Assembly (NCBI RefSeq): GCF_000827595.2
Contig: NZ_LN776179.1
Location: 1-64,000 of the forward strand
Length of the DNA: 64,000 nucleotides
Direction: 5' to 3'
Source of the DNA: Necropsobacter massiliensis
GTDB taxonomy: Bacteria > Pseudomonadota > Gammaproteobacteria > Enterobacterales > Pasteurellaceae
Shown here in pieces: positions 21,755 through 63,015 of this stretch. Numbering within the stretch: position 1 is the first letter of the stretch; every line of letters begins with the position of its first letter. The notes below the pieces were generated by a model. That model saw only the letters and a list, made by a program, of their open reading frames with translations. It was not told where the DNA came from and searched no databases. The translations under genes and the position numbers were made by a program.

Positions 21755-23857
21755 ATGAATAAAAAAGCCAAAGTCACCTTGACCTTATCTGCCATCGCCG
21801 TCGCTTTAGGGATCGGCGCTCAATTTTACACCAATTACAAAATTGATCAGGTTTTACAGAATTTTCCTTATTCGTTGCGCGATCAGCTGACCTTGAACGT
21901 CAGCCAGCAAAACGCCAATTTCTTCAGCCGGGAACTGATGTTCAGCATTACCGACGCCGACGCGCAAAAAACCGATATTATCAGCACCAAACTGACCGCA
22001 CTGCCTTTCGCCGTAACTGCGGAATCGGAGCTGCCGCAAAATCTGGTGCGCGAGTTGAATAAAAAACTGAAGATCACCATTGATAAAAATATGATCAGCA
22101 GTAAATTTTCGGTGATCGGTGATTATCTGCAATCCAGCATTTCCACTCAATTCCGTGATTTGGCAAATACCTCACAGACGCTGGAAATTGATCTGAATTT
22201 TGCATCCAAAACGAAATTTATGGAAATTCAAAGCAGACTAACGGGCTTTAATTATGACGCCAATTCTAAACTCAACGGGTTGAAAACTAATCTGACCCTC
22301 GTTCCAGTCGGGCGCAGCCAGTATGATCTGGCGGATCTTGATCTCAGCCTCAACGATGCAGATATTTATCTGCTGGACGGTGATAACACGCACATTCGGC
22401 TCAACAAACTCAATTACAGTGTGAATAAATCGGTGTCCGCCGATACTTATGATCTCAATACGAATCTCAGCGGAGAAAAAGTGTATCTTTCCGACAAAAA
22501 CCGCAAAGAGGATAAAATCGAAATCAGCGGATTACAAATTTCCACTGCCCAAAACGGCATCCCAAACGAACTGGTTTTCGCAAATATCCTAAATACGTCG
22601 GACAAAAACAGCATTGATTATCCGAAAGCGATCAACCTGTTATTGGATCTTTTATTTAATAACCGGCAATCGGAAGCCAATATCAGCATCACGGCATTAA
22701 ATGTGCCGCAACAACAGCAAACCACCTTTGCGCTGAAAAATGCCAATTTGGCGTTTAAAGGCAATTATCAGGATAAACAAAATGCCGAATTTAATCTGAC
22801 CTTTCGCCTTGACGAACTGAACGCCAATCCGCAAACAAAACGACCGCTGAAGATAAGCGGCATTGAGCTGGAAAACAACGTCTCCCGTTCCGATTTAGCC
22901 GCCCGTTTAACTTGGCTGAAAGGCGCTTTTGCGTTATTTAACCGCACGCCGGATAACAATGAACACCAAGCACCGACAAAAGATAATCCGGAATTTTTGA
23001 CGGCATTAACGGATTTCGCACACAATTTCAATGAAACCACGGCGCTCAAATTGCGTGTCAACAGCCTGTCTTGGCAGGAAAATACGCAGGCTAACGGATT
23101 AAACCTAAACTATAGCGAAGCACCGACAGCGCAGAACGGCTATGCCATTCAACTTAACGGCAGCTTGGAAAAATACCGCAACGAACAAGACGGGCTGCAA
23201 CTCAGCAACCTTAGCCTGAACCTGCCAGCGAAGGTAGACGATTTTCAGCGCCTGCTGCCGTATTATATTTGCTCTCAGCACCTTATCGACACTTACTGCG
23301 CCGCCAATTTGACAGAGCAAACCTTAGCCAAACAATGGGTTGATGTGATCAATGTCGGCTTTAGTATAACCGGCGATATCAGCGCCAATTTGGATTCCGT
23401 GCCGGCAAGCGAAAATGCCGACATCAACGCGTCGTTGAAGGTCAATATTCCGCCGTCGGCAAACGATAAAAGCGAAAATCATGCAACCCTGATAGGTGAA
23501 CGTCTGGAACAAGCCGATACGGTTATTACGCTGACTGTGCCGACCTTATTGCTCAGCGACGAAAACCCAATCAAAGCCAAGCTGAAAAGCGAAAGCCGCT
23601 TCTGGCGCGGGCTAAATACTATCATCAAGCCGGACAATCAGTTATCCCGTTACTTCGTAGAGGAAAATGATCGCTATACGTACCGTTTTGAGAAAAATGC
23701 AAACGGTGAATTTGTTAACGGCAAACCGTTGTCGCAGCTGGAACAGGAAATAGAACCAGAACAGCAACAGACCACACCGCAAACGGAAGAACACCAACAG
23801 CACCCGGATCCGGCAATCGCACCGGCAGAAACCGACGCACTACAGCCGACACAATAA
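21755..23857 (+). CDS. Large single-anchor envelope protein, possibly DUF945-like
   Basis: 700 residues after choosing the ATG with TTAGGA before it. A single N-terminal hydrophobic segment (residues about 6-24) is followed by FYTNYKIDQVLQNFPYSL and a long, mostly beta-strand periplasmic region without cysteine-rich or enzymatic motifs. The C-terminal ~40 residues are Gln/Glu/Pro/Thr-rich and probably disordered. The start resembles the DUF945 (YdgA) layout (anchor, Tyr/Gln-rich stretch, then a FFSRELMF block comparable with RGFFSS of the protein encoded at 42696-44144). Function unknown; a distant DUF945 or AsmA-like relation is only inferred. Confidence 0.8.
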   Translation: MNKKAKVTLTLSAIAVALGIGAQFYTNYKIDQVLQNFPYSLRDQLTLNVSQQNANFFSRELMFSITDADAQKTDIISTKLTALPFAVTAESELPQNLVRELNKKLKITIDKNMISSKFSVIGDYLQSSISTQFRDLANTSQTLEIDLNFASKTKFMEIQSRLTGFNYDANSKLNGLKTNLTLVPVGRSQYDLADLDLSLNDADIYLLDGDNTHIRLNKLNYSVNKSVSADTYDLNTNLSGEKVYLSDKNRKEDKIEISGLQISTAQNGIPNELVFANILNTSDKNSIDYPKAINLLLDLLFNNRQSEANISITALNVPQQQQTTFALKNANLAFKGNYQDKQNAEFNLTFRLDELNANPQTKRPLKISGIELENNVSRSDLAARLTWLKGAFALFNRTPDNNEHQAPTKDNPEFLTALTDFAHNFNETTALKLRVNSLSWQENTQANGLNLNYSEAPTAQNGYAIQLNGSLEKYRNEQDGLQLSNLSLNLPAKVDDFQRLLPYYICSQHLIDTYCAANLTEQTLAKQWVDVINVGFSITGDISANLDSVPASENADINASLKVNIPPSANDKSENHATLIGERLEQADTVITLTVPTLLLSDENPIKAKLKSESRFWRGLNTIIKPDNQLSRYFVEENDRYTYRFEKNANGEFVNGKPLSQLEQEIEPEQQQTTPQTEEHQQHPDPAIAPAETDALQPTQ

Positions 23858-23862
23858 AGTGC

Positions 23863-23905
23863 AAAGTGCGGTGAAAAAATTGAAAATTTCCACCGCACTT
23901 TCTTT
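23863..23905 (+). terminator. USS-pair terminator after the 700-residue protein
   Basis: AAAGTGCGGTG (23863-23873) and CACCGCACTTT (23891-23901) form an 11-bp stem that extends through A/T pairs towards the loop, followed by CTTT. Confidence 0.78.
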
Positions 23906-23930
23906 ACAAATCGGAAAATCCTCCTACAAT
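23903..23930 (+). promoter_or_regulatory. Sigma-70 promoter of trhP
   Basis: TTTACA, 16-nt spacer, TACAAT. The predicted start of transcription near 23937 gives a leader of about 60 nt that begins with the two hairpins described next. Confidence 0.6.
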
Positions 23931-23946
23931 AGCCTTTCCCTAAACG

Positions 23947-23982
23947 ACCTGCCCACGCGGCAGGTTCTGACTTGTAATCAGA
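23947..23982 (+). promoter_or_regulatory. Structured trhP leader: hairpin plus tRNA-Thr(UGU) anticodon-arm mimic
   Basis: Two perfect adjacent hairpins. The first is ACCTGCC, loop CACGC, GGCAGGT (23947-23965). The second is TCTGA, loop CTTGTAA, TCAGA (23966-23982), a 5-bp stem with a 7-nt loop, the exact geometry of an anticodon arm. The loop has U33, UGU at positions 34-36, and A37-A38. The inner 15 nt equal the anticodon arm of E. coli tRNA-Thr(UGU) as I recall it. No D or T arm is present, so it is not a tRNA gene. It ends about 4 nt before the AAGAGA ribosome-binding region of trhP, whose product family modifies U34. Autoregulation is inferred. Confidence 0.6.
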
Positions 23983-23997
23983 CACAAAGAGACATTT

Positions 23998-25380
23998 ATG
24001 ACAACTCCGTTCAAGCCCGAACTGCTTTCGCCGGCAGGTTCGCTGAAAAATATGCGCTATGCTTTCGCTTACGGCGCCGATGCGGTATATGCCGGTCAAC
24101 CCCGCTACAGCCTGCGCGTACGCAACAATGAATTTAATCACGCCAATTTAAAAATCGGTATCGATGAAGCCCATGCCTTAGGCAAAAAATTCTATGTGGT
24201 GGTCAATATCGCGCCGCACAACTCCAAATTAAAAACGTTTATCAAAGACTTACAGCCGGTCATCGAAATGAAACCCGACGCGCTGATCATGTCCGATCCC
24301 GGTTTAATTATGCTGGTACGCGAACATTTCCCGCATATGGATATTCATCTGTCGGTGCAGGCTAACGCAGTCAACTGGGCAACGGTAAAATTCTGGCGGC
24401 AACTGGGGCTGACCCGCGTGATTCTCTCGCGCGAGCTGTCGCTTGAAGAAATCGGCGAAATTCGTCGACAGGTGCCGGATATCGAAATTGAAATTTTCGT
24501 ACACGGTGCCTTATGTATGGCTTATTCCGGACGTTGTCTGCTGTCTGGCTATATCAATAAGCGCGATCCAAATCAGGGCACTTGCACCAATGCCTGCCGC
24601 TGGGAATATTCCGTTAGCGAAGGCAAAGAAGACGAAATCGGCAATATCGTTAACGCCGCGGAGCACATTCCGGTCAAAAATATTGCCCCGACCTTGGGCG
24701 ACGGCGCGACAACCGATAAAGTGTTCCTACTGGCGGAAAGTCAGCGCCCGGAAGAAAAAATGTCTGCTTTTGAAGACGAACACGGCACCTATATTATGAA
24801 TTCAAAGGATCTGCGCGCTGTACAGCATGTGGAACAACTGACAAAGCTGGGGGTTCATTCGCTGAAAATCGAAGGGCGCACTAAATCCTTCTATTATTGT
24901 GCCAGAACCGCACAGGTATATCGTAAAGCCATTGACGATGCGGCGGCGGGCAAACCGTTTGACCCAAGCCTGATGGATACGCTGGAAAGCCTTGCTCACC
25001 GCGGTTATACCGAAGGTTTTCTGCGCCGCCATACGCATGACGAATATCAAAATTACGAGTACGGCTACTCGATTTCCGAACGTCAGCAGTTTGTCGGCGA
25101 GTTTACCGGCATGCGCAAAGGCGGTTTGGCGGAAGTGGCGGTAAAAAACAAATTTTTACTCGGCGATGAAGTGGAATTAATGACGCCACAGGGCAATATC
25201 GTATTTACTCTCAAGCGCCTGCTTAACCGCAAAGGTGAAAATGTAGATACCGCTCCCGGCGACGGACATTTTGTCTTTCTCGACGTGCCGGAAGAAATTG
25301 ATCTAAATTACGCCCTGTTAATGCGCAATTTAATGGGTACGGATACCAGAAATCCGCATAATAAAAAAGCGGCTGAGTGA
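23998..25380 (+). CDS. trhP: tRNA U34 hydroxylation protein TrhP (YegQ, U32 peptidase family)
   Basis: 460-residue member of the U32 family needed, with prephenate-derived factors, for 5-hydroxyuridine at tRNA wobble position 34, the precursor of cmo5U/mo5U. The start ELLSPAGSLKNMRYAFAYGADAVYAG and the U32 signature EIFVHGALCMAYSGRCLLS (near residues 165-185) are intact, followed by conserved cysteines (CTNACRWEY) and the C-terminal U32 beta domain. Length is near E. coli YegQ (453). It stands alone on its transcript, with its own promoter and a structured leader carrying an anticodon-arm-like hairpin. Confidence 0.93.
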   Translation: MTTPFKPELLSPAGSLKNMRYAFAYGADAVYAGQPRYSLRVRNNEFNHANLKIGIDEAHALGKKFYVVVNIAPHNSKLKTFIKDLQPVIEMKPDALIMSDPGLIMLVREHFPHMDIHLSVQANAVNWATVKFWRQLGLTRVILSRELSLEEIGEIRRQVPDIEIEIFVHGALCMAYSGRCLLSGYINKRDPNQGTCTNACRWEYSVSEGKEDEIGNIVNAAEHIPVKNIAPTLGDGATTDKVFLLAESQRPEEKMSAFEDEHGTYIMNSKDLRAVQHVEQLTKLGVHSLKIEGRTKSFYYCARTAQVYRKAIDDAAAGKPFDPSLMDTLESLAHRGYTEGFLRRHTHDEYQNYEYGYSISERQQFVGEFTGMRKGGLAEVAVKNKFLLGDEVELMTPQGNIVFTLKRLLNRKGENVDTAPGDGHFVFLDVPEEIDLNYALLMRNLMGTDTRNPHNKKAAE

Positions 25381-25404
25381 CAATAATATTTTGTTAAAAA
25401 TATG

Positions 25405-25432
25405 TTGCAATTGTAAAACTTATGTATATAAT
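25405..25432 (+). promoter_or_regulatory. Strong sigma-70 promoter upstream of a terminator
   Basis: TTGCAA, 16-nt spacer, perfect TATAAT. It points at an intrinsic terminator only about 40 bp downstream, so it would produce a short RNA. Confidence 0.65.
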
Positions 25433-25439
25433 AGAGCCG

Positions 25440-25498
25440 TACCCTAAAAAGTATGACTCCAAATATATTCGCCCTTTCTGTTGAAAGGGCATTTTTTT
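25440..25498 (+). ncRNA. Candidate ~60-nt small RNA between trhP and queA
   Basis: Transcription from the TATAAT promoter would begin near 25440 and end at the terminator at 25471-25498. The 5' part can fold: GAGCCGTAC (25434-25442) pairs with GTATGACTC with one mismatch and one G-T pair around an A-rich loop, although the left arm partly precedes the predicted start. It is separated from queA by queA's own promoter, so it may be an independent RNA and not a leader. No known family recognised. Confidence 0.4.
25471..25498 (+). terminator. Intrinsic terminator of the candidate small RNA
   Basis: GCCCTTT, 6-nt loop, AAAGGGC, then ATTTTTTT. It has textbook form and no USS. Confidence 0.88.
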
Positions 25499-25524
25499 GC
25501 GACAATATTAAAACCGAATTTTAC

Positions 25525-25553
25525 TTGTACTCACCGACAATTCGCACTAGACT
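25525..25553 (+). promoter_or_regulatory. Probable queA promoter
   Basis: TTGTAC, 17-nt spacer, TAGACT, ending about 40 bp before the queA start codon and downstream of the terminator. Confidence 0.5.
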
Positions 25554-25594
25554 ACGCCATTCAGTTTTTTAATCTGCAAACAAAAAGTTATTCT

Positions 25595-26686
25595 ATGCGT
25601 GTTTCCGATTTTTATTTTGATTTACCAGACGAATTAATCGCCCGTTACCCGAAACCCGAGCGCACCGCCAGCCGTTTGTTACAGCTAAACGGCGAAAACG
25701 GTGAAATTTTTCACCGCACTTTTACCGATATTGTGGCATTGATTAATCCCGGCGATCTGCTGATCTTCAATAATACTCGTGTCATCCCGGCGCGGATATT
25801 CGGTCGCAAAGCCAGCGGCGGCAAAGTAGAAGTATTGGTCGAGCGAATTCTGGCAGAAAACCGCTTGCTCGCGCATATCCGCGCCTCCAAAGCACCAAAA
25901 GAAGGCGCCGAATTATTGCTGGGCGAAGACAAATTAGGCGCAGGCAATGGTATTGCCGCTACTATGATTGCGCGTCAGGGCGCATTATTTGAGCTGGAAA
26001 TTGCCGAAAAAAACACCGCACTTTTCGATTTGTTGCAGCAAATCGGTCATATCCCGCTGCCGCCTTATATTGATCGTCCCGATGAAGAAGCGGATAAAGA
26101 ACGCTATCAAACGGTCTATAATAAAGTGCCGGGTGCGGTAGCCGCGCCAACCGCGGGGTTGCATTTCGACGATGAATTACTGGCTAAACTAAAACAAAAA
26201 GGCGTGAATTTCGCTTTCGTCACGTTGCACGTCGGCGCCGGCACATTTCAACCGGTGCGAGTGGAAAATATCGAAGATCACATTATGCACGCCGAATACG
26301 CGCAGGTGTCACAAGAAGTGGTCGATGCCGTGCTGGCGACCAAACAACGCGGCAAGCGTGTTATTGCCGTCGGTACCACGTCCGTGCGTTCCATCGAAAG
26401 CGCTGCATTAGCCGCAGAACAGCAAGGTTGCGGACAATTACTTGTACCCTATTTCTCCGATACCTCGATCTTTATCTATCCCGGCAAAACCTTTCGAGTT
26501 ACCGATTGCTTAATCACAAACTTCCACTTGCCGGAAAGCACCCTGATTATGCTGGTCTCAGCATTTGCAGGTTATTCGCACACCATGGCGGCGTATCAAA
26601 GTGCGGTGAAAAATCACTACCGTTTTTTCAGTTACGGCGATGCGATGTTTATCACCAAAAATGCGCATGTGGTGGGATTGGATTAA
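25595..26686 (+). CDS. queA: S-adenosylmethionine:tRNA ribosyltransferase-isomerase QueA
   Basis: 363-residue enzyme that turns 7-aminomethyl-7-deazaguanine at tRNA position 34 into epoxyqueuosine using SAM. The start [20 protein letters not shown] is diagnostic. Other conserved blocks are [44 protein letters not shown]-like text, and [12 protein letters not shown]. An upstream in-frame extension is ignored because it lies before the likely promoter and the length fits Haemophilus QueA. It is followed by tgt, the preceding step of the pathway. Confidence 0.96.
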
Positions 26687-26720
26687 GTTTTTCAATCTAA
26701 AAAATAAATTTTGCTGATCA

Positions 26721-26750
26721 TACTTTCTTTTGTGCAAGCAAAAGAAAGTA
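26721..26750. repeat. Perfect 12-bp hairpin repeat between queA and tgt
   Basis: TACTTTCTTTTG, 6-nt loop TGCAAG, CAAAAGAAAGTA: a perfect 12-bp inverted repeat with almost all purines on one arm. It resembles the CTTTCTTTTG...CAAAAGAAAG hairpins dispersed in many gamma-proteobacterial genomes. Only one copy was seen in this window. It may act as an RNA stability or termination element between queA and tgt. Confidence 0.65.
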
Positions 26751-26751
26751 G

Positions 26752-27969
<1,218 letters not shown>

Positions 27970-60608: not shown

Positions 60609-60637
60609 TTGTCCAACCTGGACGACCTCTCTACAAT
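60609..60637 (+). promoter_or_regulatory. gcvB promoter
   Basis: TTGTCC, 17-nt spacer, TACAAT; predicted RNA start near 60645. Confidence 0.7.
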
Positions 60638-60644
60638 ACGCGCC

Positions 60645-60823
60645 ATACTTAATGATTGGTAATTCCTTACTGGTTAAAGAGTTTCGGACTTAAGTATGAT
60701 GTTGTGTTTGCATATTGTCCGGGAAGCCGGACAGAGTAACTGATAAAGTTACTCATTTCACTTCCTGTATATTTTTTAAACCCTATTTAGGTTATACACC
60801 GCTCTTATGAGCGGTGTTTTTTT
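60645..60823 (+). ncRNA. gcvB: GcvB small regulatory RNA
   Basis: About 179 nt between divergent gcvA and ilvE. Hallmarks: the G/U-rich R1 seed GATGTTGTGTTTGCATAT (60698-60715), which base-pairs with amino-acid transporter mRNAs; the conserved TTTCACTTCCTGTA (60756-60769); hairpins GTCCGG/CCGGAC (60717-60732) and AGTAAC/GTTACT (60736-60752); and an intrinsic terminator. It is Hfq-dependent in E. coli and Pasteurella multocida and is activated by GcvA when glycine is high. The 5' end is a promoter-based estimate. Confidence 0.88.
60796..60823 (+). terminator. GcvB terminator
   Basis: ACACCGCTC, loop TTAT, GAGCGGTGT followed by a T run. The remaining bases to ilvE (60824-60972) are AT-rich with no further feature recognised. 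Confidence 0.9.
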
Positions 60824-60972
60824 ATCTGCGCATACTACCACAATCTCACCGACATTTCCCCCGTCAAATTAAATAAATTGATAAAATTCTCCGATTTTAA
60901 TCCGAAACGGTTTTCAACCCATAAAGAATGGTGTAGATTAAATTTATCGTATTAATGTTTAAAGGAAGCAAA

Positions 60973-62849: not shown

Positions 62850-62925
<76 letters not shown>

Positions 62926-62928
62926 CTC

Positions 62929-63015
62929 GCCCGAGTGGTGAAATCGGTAGACACAAGGGATTTAAAATCCCTCGCCTTTCGAGGCGTGCCAGTTCAAGTC
63001 TGGCTTCGGGCACCA
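62929..63015 (+). tRNA. tRNA-Leu (anticodon TAA), probable integration site
   Basis: 87-nt class II tRNA with a long variable arm (TCGCCTTTCGAGGCG). Acceptor GCCCGAG/TTCGGGC, anticodon stem AGGGA/TCCCT with loop TTTAAAA (anticodon 62963-62965), T-loop GTTCAAGTC and encoded CCA. It is three bases downstream of tRNA-Gly. A Leu tRNA of this kind is the target of ICEHin1056-family elements, and mobile-element genes begin just after it. Confidence 0.96.

Follow-up and report, generated by a model that had tools for sequence, protein, structure and literature searches.

A conserved trhP leader element that resembles a tRNA anticodon arm, a candidate autogenous translational operator

The leader of the tRNA U34 hydroxylation gene trhP in Necropsobacter massiliensis was found to carry a conserved, RNA-level element that copies a tRNA anticodon arm and is tied to trhP. 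Judging from its sequence and position, this leader may act as an autogenous translational operator that works through tRNA mimicry, similar to that of thrS but for a modification enzyme, and this is the explanation we favor, with little more than even confidence. In the proposed mechanism, one hairpin (referred to as P2) would imitate the anticodon arm of a tRNA with U34 and G35 (of the Thr, Ser or Ala type), and a second hairpin (referred to as P1) would occupy the D-arm position 5′ of the anticodon stem and probably stack on P2. When TrhP exceeds unmodified tRNA, it would bind P2, 5 nt 5′ of the Shine-Dalgarno sequence, so that 30S binding is blocked; when under-hydroxylated tRNAs accumulate, these would titrate TrhP away and allow trhP to be translated. 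That TrhP binds, that binding represses and that competing tRNA is the signal is what we infer from the data below.

Layout of the trhP leader

The window (i.e. the whole stretch of DNA that was analysed, 64,000 nt of contig NZ_LN776179.1) contains the following features at the trhP locus.

23903..23930, + strand: sigma-70-like promoter, TTTACA and TACAAT separated by 16 nt (1 match in a consensus scan versus a mean of 0.3 in shuffles)
23947..23965, + strand: P1 hairpin, ACCTGCC-CACGC-GGCAGGT, perfect 7 bp, 1 nt 5′ of P2 (from sequence and covariation)
23967..23981, + strand: P2, the anticodon-arm-like hairpin CTGA-CTTGTAA-TCAG (stem 23967-23970 with 23978-23981, loop 23971-23977)
23966..23982, + strand: fifth P2 pair, T23966-A23982, a local feature of this genome although A23982 itself is conserved
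23987..23992, + strand: Shine-Dalgarno-like AAGAGA, 5 nt 3′ of P2 (in a similar place in relatives)
23998..25380, + strand: trhP (yegQ), encoding the prephenate-dependent tRNA U34 hydroxylation protein of 460 aa, with its ATG at 23998

An earlier reading of this DNA, made from the sequence only, had assigned the gene to trhP, and this was confirmed by the NCBIfam equivalog NF011996 (841.4 bits versus a cut-off of 534); the nearest named relatives of the protein were those of Haemophilus massiliensis (97% identity) and Necropsobacter rosorum (94%), which places the genome in the Pasteurellaceae. The same reading had described a perfect 7-bp hairpin adjoining the 5′ side of the arm, a promoter just upstream and a ribosome binding site (RBS) shortly after the arm, and P1, the promoter-like site and the AAGAGA sequence indeed lie in these places. 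Transcription is expected to start at about 23936-23938, as predicted from the promoter-like site, yielding a leader of about 60 nt; –10-like sequences could also be seen by eye 5′ of the element in relatives. Within the P2 loop, the bases at 23973, 23974 and 23975 correspond to U34, G35 and position 36, respectively.

Fold prediction gave the leader's four P2 pairs probabilities of 0.80-0.88, the fifth pair one of 0.59 and three P1 pairs values of 0.997 or above. The end of P2 is located 16 nt upstream of the ATG in this genome, and the corresponding spacing in relatives ranges from 7 to 19 nt (12-16 nt in 77 of 88 distinct leaders). P2 therefore appears to be placed where a bound protein would block the RBS.

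Immediately 5′ of the promoter lies an inverted pair (AAAGTGCGGTG/CACCGCACTTT, 23857-23901) that, we assume, resembles paired Pasteurellacean uptake signals and is perhaps a terminator. On the other side, trhP, queA and tgt are consecutive (23998-27969), which puts three genes for wobble-position modification in a row.

The element is conserved at trhP loci

Loci were chosen by gene, comprising the best 80 of 449 named TrhP-similar loci and 30 from relatives, and the motif was present 5′ of trhP in 109 of these 110 (79 of the 80 named loci; some genomes were represented twice and 88 leaders were distinct). The sole exception was a locus of Haemophilus ducreyi (L094). The P2 sequence was tallied over 160 leaders, 136 of them distinct, using a search pattern in which the stem, U34 and G35 are fixed, positions 32 and 33 must be pyrimidines and positions 36-38 and the flanks are free. 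Since the invariance of the stem, U34 and G35 is preset by this pattern, the real support for them comes from its occurrence at 109 of the 110 gene-chosen loci. Because the loci were selected by gene and P1 covaries (see below), a chance hairpin is ruled out, both by conservation at such loci and by shuffles.

Within the Pasteurellaceae, the element was found in 35 of the 36 genomes with trhP, of which 30 were read directly and five (G003, G011, G025, G026 and G027) by coordinates. The one genome with trhP but without the element (G006) has its pattern matches at the same coordinates as the H. ducreyi genome. In total, the pattern occurred 99 times in 37 Pasteurellaceae genomes, compared to 5 times for a reversed control. 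Genome G021 has no trhP, and its three pattern matches correspond to one tRNA-Thr(UGU) and two stretches with other loops; in this genome (one contig, 99% complete) neither TrhP nor TrhO was found and CmoB was kept.

In the wider order, the element was present in 8 of 20 genomes (absent in 12) and subsequently in 23 of 40 further genomes (absent in 17). By family label, the latter set showed the element in f18 (11/11), f25 (7/7), f2 (2/2), f21 (2/2) and f196 (1/1), and not in f6 (0/6), f11 (0/4), f9 (0/3), f20 (0/2), f7 (0/1) and f195 (0/1), although other f9 and f11 genomes do carry it. The trhP leader of E. coli K-12 reads CCGCTTCA-TCAGG-TGAAGCGG, AT, CTGA-CCTGTCA-TCAG, AACGAGAGAATT, ATG. 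Among 30 trhP loci taken class-wide, the motif was found within 250 nt in the window and in one family member and was absent in 28, of which 27 lie outside the order and one belongs to it. Conservation in close relatives had been named beforehand as one point on which the sequence-only reading would stand or fall, and the arm is in fact kept at the trhP RBS in the Pasteurellaceae and several further families of the order.

P1 is a covarying RNA hairpin

A MAFFT alignment of 73 representatives, to which the structure was transferred by hand from one row, contained 86.0% paired cells versus 72.6% in shuffles, 125 doubly changed cells versus 49.1 (sd 8.7), and a covariation score of 0.374 versus 0.155, with 0 of 500 shuffles matching any of these three values. 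With slid partners, 28.8-43.4% of the cells were paired and doubly changed cells numbered 19-51. The number of pairs changed on both sides (7 of 7) was not above that in shuffles (mean 6.6, 320/500). The covariation signal came entirely from P1, in which 78.0% of the cells were paired, and the leader thus contains a conserved RNA structure with compensatory changes, at P1. The four pairs of the P2 stem were invariant in the alignment and hence offered no compensatory evidence, so that the covariation sought by the earlier reading exists in P1 and not in the arm itself.

Of the 136 distinct leaders, 126 had 5 or more uninterrupted P1 pairs, with the stem finishing 0-2 nt 5′ of P2 and with 94 different 5′ arms among them; the same P1 score was attained by 258 of 2720 shuffled upstream sequences. 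Shifting the P1 anchor by 3 nt still returned 111 stems (shortened), whereas shifts of 5 and 8 nt returned 39 and 7, respectively. The gap between P1 and P2 measured one nucleotide in 76 of the 126 leaders. This order matches that of the D arm, base 26 and anticodon stem in tRNA, and by this analogy P1 might be a stand-in for the D arm.

Sequence variation in P2 points to a loop that is read

Among the 136 distinct leaders, position 32 was C in 127 and U in 9, and position 33 was U in 91 and C in 45, C33 being unlike tRNA. Position 36 was A in 77, U in 52, C in 7 and G in none; position 37 was A in 58, U in 33, C in 30 and G in 15; position 38 was A in 121 and C in 15. The base directly 3′ of the stem was A in 132 leaders. 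Because a fifth pair was possible in only 20, the conserved P2 stem is one of 4 bp. Accordingly, the hairpin with 5 bp and a 7-nt loop (23966-23982) that had been described before exists in this genome, with a closing pair that few of the other leaders could form. A proper anticodon loop is likewise seen here and not in every leader, given C33 in 45 leaders, any base at position 37 and C38 in 15, and the CTTGTAA loop, whose conservation the earlier reading had asked to be checked, differs in 124 of the 136 leaders. P2 pairing probability exceeded 0.5 in 88 of the 136 (mean 0.59).

Conservation of the loop was asymmetric, with C-Y-U-G followed by A/U/C-N-A/C, which suggests a loop that is read rather than a palindromic DNA site. 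We consider it unlikely that P2 resembles an anticodon arm by coincidence and that the site is recognised by an unrelated RNA-binding protein or nuclease or is a DNA operator. In favor of this, C33 and the free position 37 are not tRNA-like, compensatory changes are lacking in the P2 stem of the leaders collected, and the fixed CTGA...TCAGA may be a sequence tag. However, P2 adjoins a covarying RNA hairpin, the 5′ half of its loop is conserved more whereas a dimeric DNA site should be symmetric, its "anticodon" is confined to UGA, UGU and UGC, and identical 15-mers can be found in genes for tRNA-Thr(UGU) and tRNA-Ser(UGA).

A passive leader structure that supports mRNA stability or keeps the RBS open, with P2 read by no protein, seems quite improbable. 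It would fit with P1 varying freely provided that pairing is kept, and with the A-rich RBS next to it, but the conserved 4-bp form of P2 contributes only –0.7 kcal/mol with the loop of this genome, a value so small that stability alone would not call for such conservation, and the P2 loop is conserved in sequence. A pseudoknot between the P2 loop and the Shine-Dalgarno sequence was rejected, as the C33/U33 changes are unmatched by the RBS (by eye).

In the 30 of 61 tested leaders that lack the strict motif, any hairpin with 4 bp and a 7-nt YUG loop was found in 5 of 30, versus 0.033 per shuffled leader, and a leader-like loop in 2 of 30 (L342 and L168), versus 0.26 expected from shuffles. The L342 hairpin (genome G539), CTGG-CTTGTAA-CCAG, lies 22 nt 5′ of the trhP start codon without a clear P1 and is possibly a compensated form of P2, and that of L168 lies far from the start codon; compensated P2 stems in such leaders are suggestive only. 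The motif thus appears to be either present or absent with few intermediates, some of which hint at decay and possibly at compensation. In L341 (genome G361), the CTGA...TCAGA stem persists 5′ of the RBS, but its loop reads TATAAAA and not CYTGNNN.

P2 resembles the anticodon arms of TrhP-dependent tRNAs

The inner 15 nt of P2 are identical to the anticodon arm of tRNA-Thr(UGU) in the same genome (ACTGACTTGTAATCAGT); the earlier reading had stated such an identity for the tRNA-Thr(UGU) of E. coli. This genome contains three matches to CTGAYYTGNNNTCAG, namely the trhP leader, tRNA-Thr(UGU) and one stretch without a tRNA. The identity ends at the fifth pair, which is U-A in the leader and A-U in the tRNA. 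The tRNA-Ser(UGA) of this genome has the loop CUUGAAA on a different stem, and the same loop occurs in 15 of the 136 distinct leaders; no tRNA-Ala(UGC) was present among the 40 of 50 own-genome tRNA matches that were examined. The P1/P2 site itself is not a tRNA gene (with acceptor, D, anticodon and T arms), and ARAGORN called no tRNA there.

Read as an anticodon, positions 34-36 were UGA in 77, UGT in 52, UGC in 7 and UGG in none of the 136 distinct leaders, corresponding to Ser, Thr and Ala with no Pro. Since UGA (Ser) is found in 77 of them, the copied tRNA is not Thr(UGU) alone, and the earlier proposal of a Thr(UGU) mimic fits the 15-nt identity in this genome and not the leaders at large. 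In E. coli, the anticodons UGA, UGU and UGC belong to tRNAs that are hydroxylated at U34 (PMC6599085). On sequence grounds, the leader hairpin therefore seems to copy the anticodon arm of a tRNA on which the encoded protein acts. ThrRS as a general reader (i.e. the thrS operator itself) was rejected because position 36 is not fixed, being U in 52 of 136 leaders. G35 and U36 are the ThrRS identity bases.

The 15-nt identity with tRNA-Thr(UGU) could also point to a tRNA gene fossil, such as an attachment site left behind by an integrated element. This origin is extremely unlikely: the identity stops at the fifth pair, the loop differs from CTTGTAA in 124 of the 136 leaders (although most of the relatives listed also have CTGACTTGTAATCAG elsewhere in the genome), and conservation across families together with a covarying P1 excludes recent debris.

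A leader model recovers trhP leaders and tRNA anticodon arms

A model (R1) was built from leaders without any tRNA in its input and searched with stricter filters order- and class-wide, where weak matches were lost. Across 295 genomes of the order, 148 were matched at E ≤0.05. From the longer list of matches, 40 stretches were picked with a preference for second and weak ones, and tblastn located 20 of these 5′ of trhP. The other 20 comprised nine tRNA-Ser(UGA), one tRNA-Thr(UGU), nine in open frames (here, frames of at least 100 codons on one strand) and one (L200) in none of these; L200 does not have the strict motif, and L212, counted among the open frames, shows a Ser-like arm that was not called by ARAGORN. 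Twelve further pattern stretches, again picked from a longer list, fell into open frames (eight), a tRNA-Ser(UGA), a trhP leader and neither (two). Placement of the element before other genes was rejected for the stretches examined, in which the non-trhP matches were tRNA genes, open frames and a few of neither kind; as both sets were drawn from longer and partly truncated lists, a rare second target may exist. Class-wide, R1 matched 7 of 274 genomes, consisting of two Pasteurellaceae leaders and five weak matches, in which no tRNA gene was found.

Besides chance matches, the leader model thus recovers the anticodon arms of tRNA-Ser(UGA) and tRNA-Thr(UGU), and identical 15-mers are present in genes for both tRNAs. 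Mimicry is strengthened by this recovery and by the restriction of position 36 to the bases that yield UGA, UGU or UGC. One match of the model (L205, genome G409, label f7) consists of four tandem tRNA-Ser(UGA) genes in a genome without a trhP match.

TrhP is the simplest candidate reader

No match to PF17773 (a family that carries the name UPF0176_N, that matches E. coli and that we take to stand for TrhO) was found in the 37 Pasteurellaceae genomes, and CmoM yielded only 4 weak partial matches in them, whereas CmoB was present in all 37. For lack of a good match in this family, TrhO or CmoM was rejected as a general reader, which would leave TrhP or CmoB as the pathway reader in Pasteurellaceae. 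Between these, TrhP would be the simpler one, given that the element accompanies trhP and that CmoB needs a U34 that is already hydroxylated. The six E. coli tRNAs for NYN codons receive their ho5U34 from TrhP and TrhO, and CmoB and CmoM act at later steps (PMC6599085).

It is rather unlikely that a different enzyme of this pathway reads the mimic, be it CmoB or, in genomes that have them, TrhO or CmoM, in which case trhP translation would track a later step or the oxygen-dependent branch. CmoM is described to read a flipped U34 and G35 and to be largely independent of U33 (PMC10516636), a preference that the leader loop mirrors, and TrhO mainly serves tRNAs besides Leu3 and Pro3, nearer to UGA, UGU and UGC (PMC6599085). 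Among 61 relatives, moreover, CmoB was absent only in G038 and G049, and no element was seen in G038. Nevertheless, the element is near-universal in Pasteurellaceae, where TrhO is unmatched and CmoM matches are weak and partial; both CmoM and CmoB act on an already modified U34; and CmoB is retained in G006 and G021, for example, neither of which carries the element.

Reading by TrhP has counterpoints of its own. TrhP also serves A35 tRNAs (Leu and Val), and E. coli TrhP prefers Leu3 and Pro3 (PMC6599085), whereas the leaders, by their sequence, appear to offer G35 and never a Pro anticodon, unlike these preferred substrates. A mimic weaker than the best TrhP substrates would, at a guess, suit feedback. 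C33, the weakness of the P2 hairpin and the many trhP lineages without the element also speak against TrhP. Direct action of TrhP on RNA had not been shown in the account of PMC6599085, and no PDB chain matched TrhP (phmmer, E 0.001); the leader offers a small candidate RNA ligand that would aid structural and enzymatic work on this protein.

A further possibility, which we regard as fairly improbable, is that TrhP, with prephenate, hydroxylates its own mRNA at the U34-like base (23973). The leader would then report covalently on hydroxylation capacity and prephenate supply, with ho5U altering the binding of TrhP or the ribosome. If P2 were a true substrate in this way, it would represent a bacterial mRNA leader that is regulated through a tRNA-type base modification. 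Under the favored operator with TrhP as its reader, the leader would be a widespread case, found in E. coli K-12 too, in which mimicry of its tRNA substrate controls a modification enzyme, and wobble-base modification would be linked to how much unmodified tRNA is present and perhaps also to prephenate.

Relation to known systems

In the METTL16/MAT2A system, hairpins in an mRNA copy the RNA substrate of a modifying enzyme, which reads them and thereby sets expression, but this system is human, resides in a 3′ UTR and controls another gene. PreQ1 riboswitches and the like provide leader control of a wobble modification pathway, but do so by sensing a metabolite.

The closest parallel is the thrS leader of E. 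coli, where ThrRS prevents 30S binding by occupying tRNA-like hairpins in its own leader (PMC7373986, PMC3858243). As in the trhP leader, the thrS hairpins lie 5′ of the RBS and one of them has an anticodon-like loop. The thrS-encoded protein acts on the copied tRNA and competition between tRNA and leader sets its level, the latter being what we propose for trhP. In contrast to thrS, trhP encodes a tRNA modification enzyme and not a synthetase, the anticodon copied in its leader may be Thr, Ser or Ala, and the element measures about 35 nt with P1 in the D-arm position. TadA, a wobble-base enzyme, edits mRNA hairpins that resemble the anticodon arm of tRNA-Arg2, with the tRNA competing (PMC13170351); the TadA sites, however, occur in many mRNAs, and the parts of that account available to us do not describe a conserved hairpin in the tadA leader.

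In the accessible text of the open-licence PMC literature, no report of a trhP leader element or of TrhP autoregulation was found; one paper names yegQ as a neighbour of cyaR. Known Rfam cis-regulatory elements were rejected as well, because no Rfam 15 family matched the element at gathering score in searches of the window and 10 whole relatives, and allowing E up to 10 gave sub-gathering matches only. Elsewhere in the window, Rfam placed the GcvB sRNA at 60628-60825, and a tRNA-Gly and a tRNA-Leu are located at 62850-63015.
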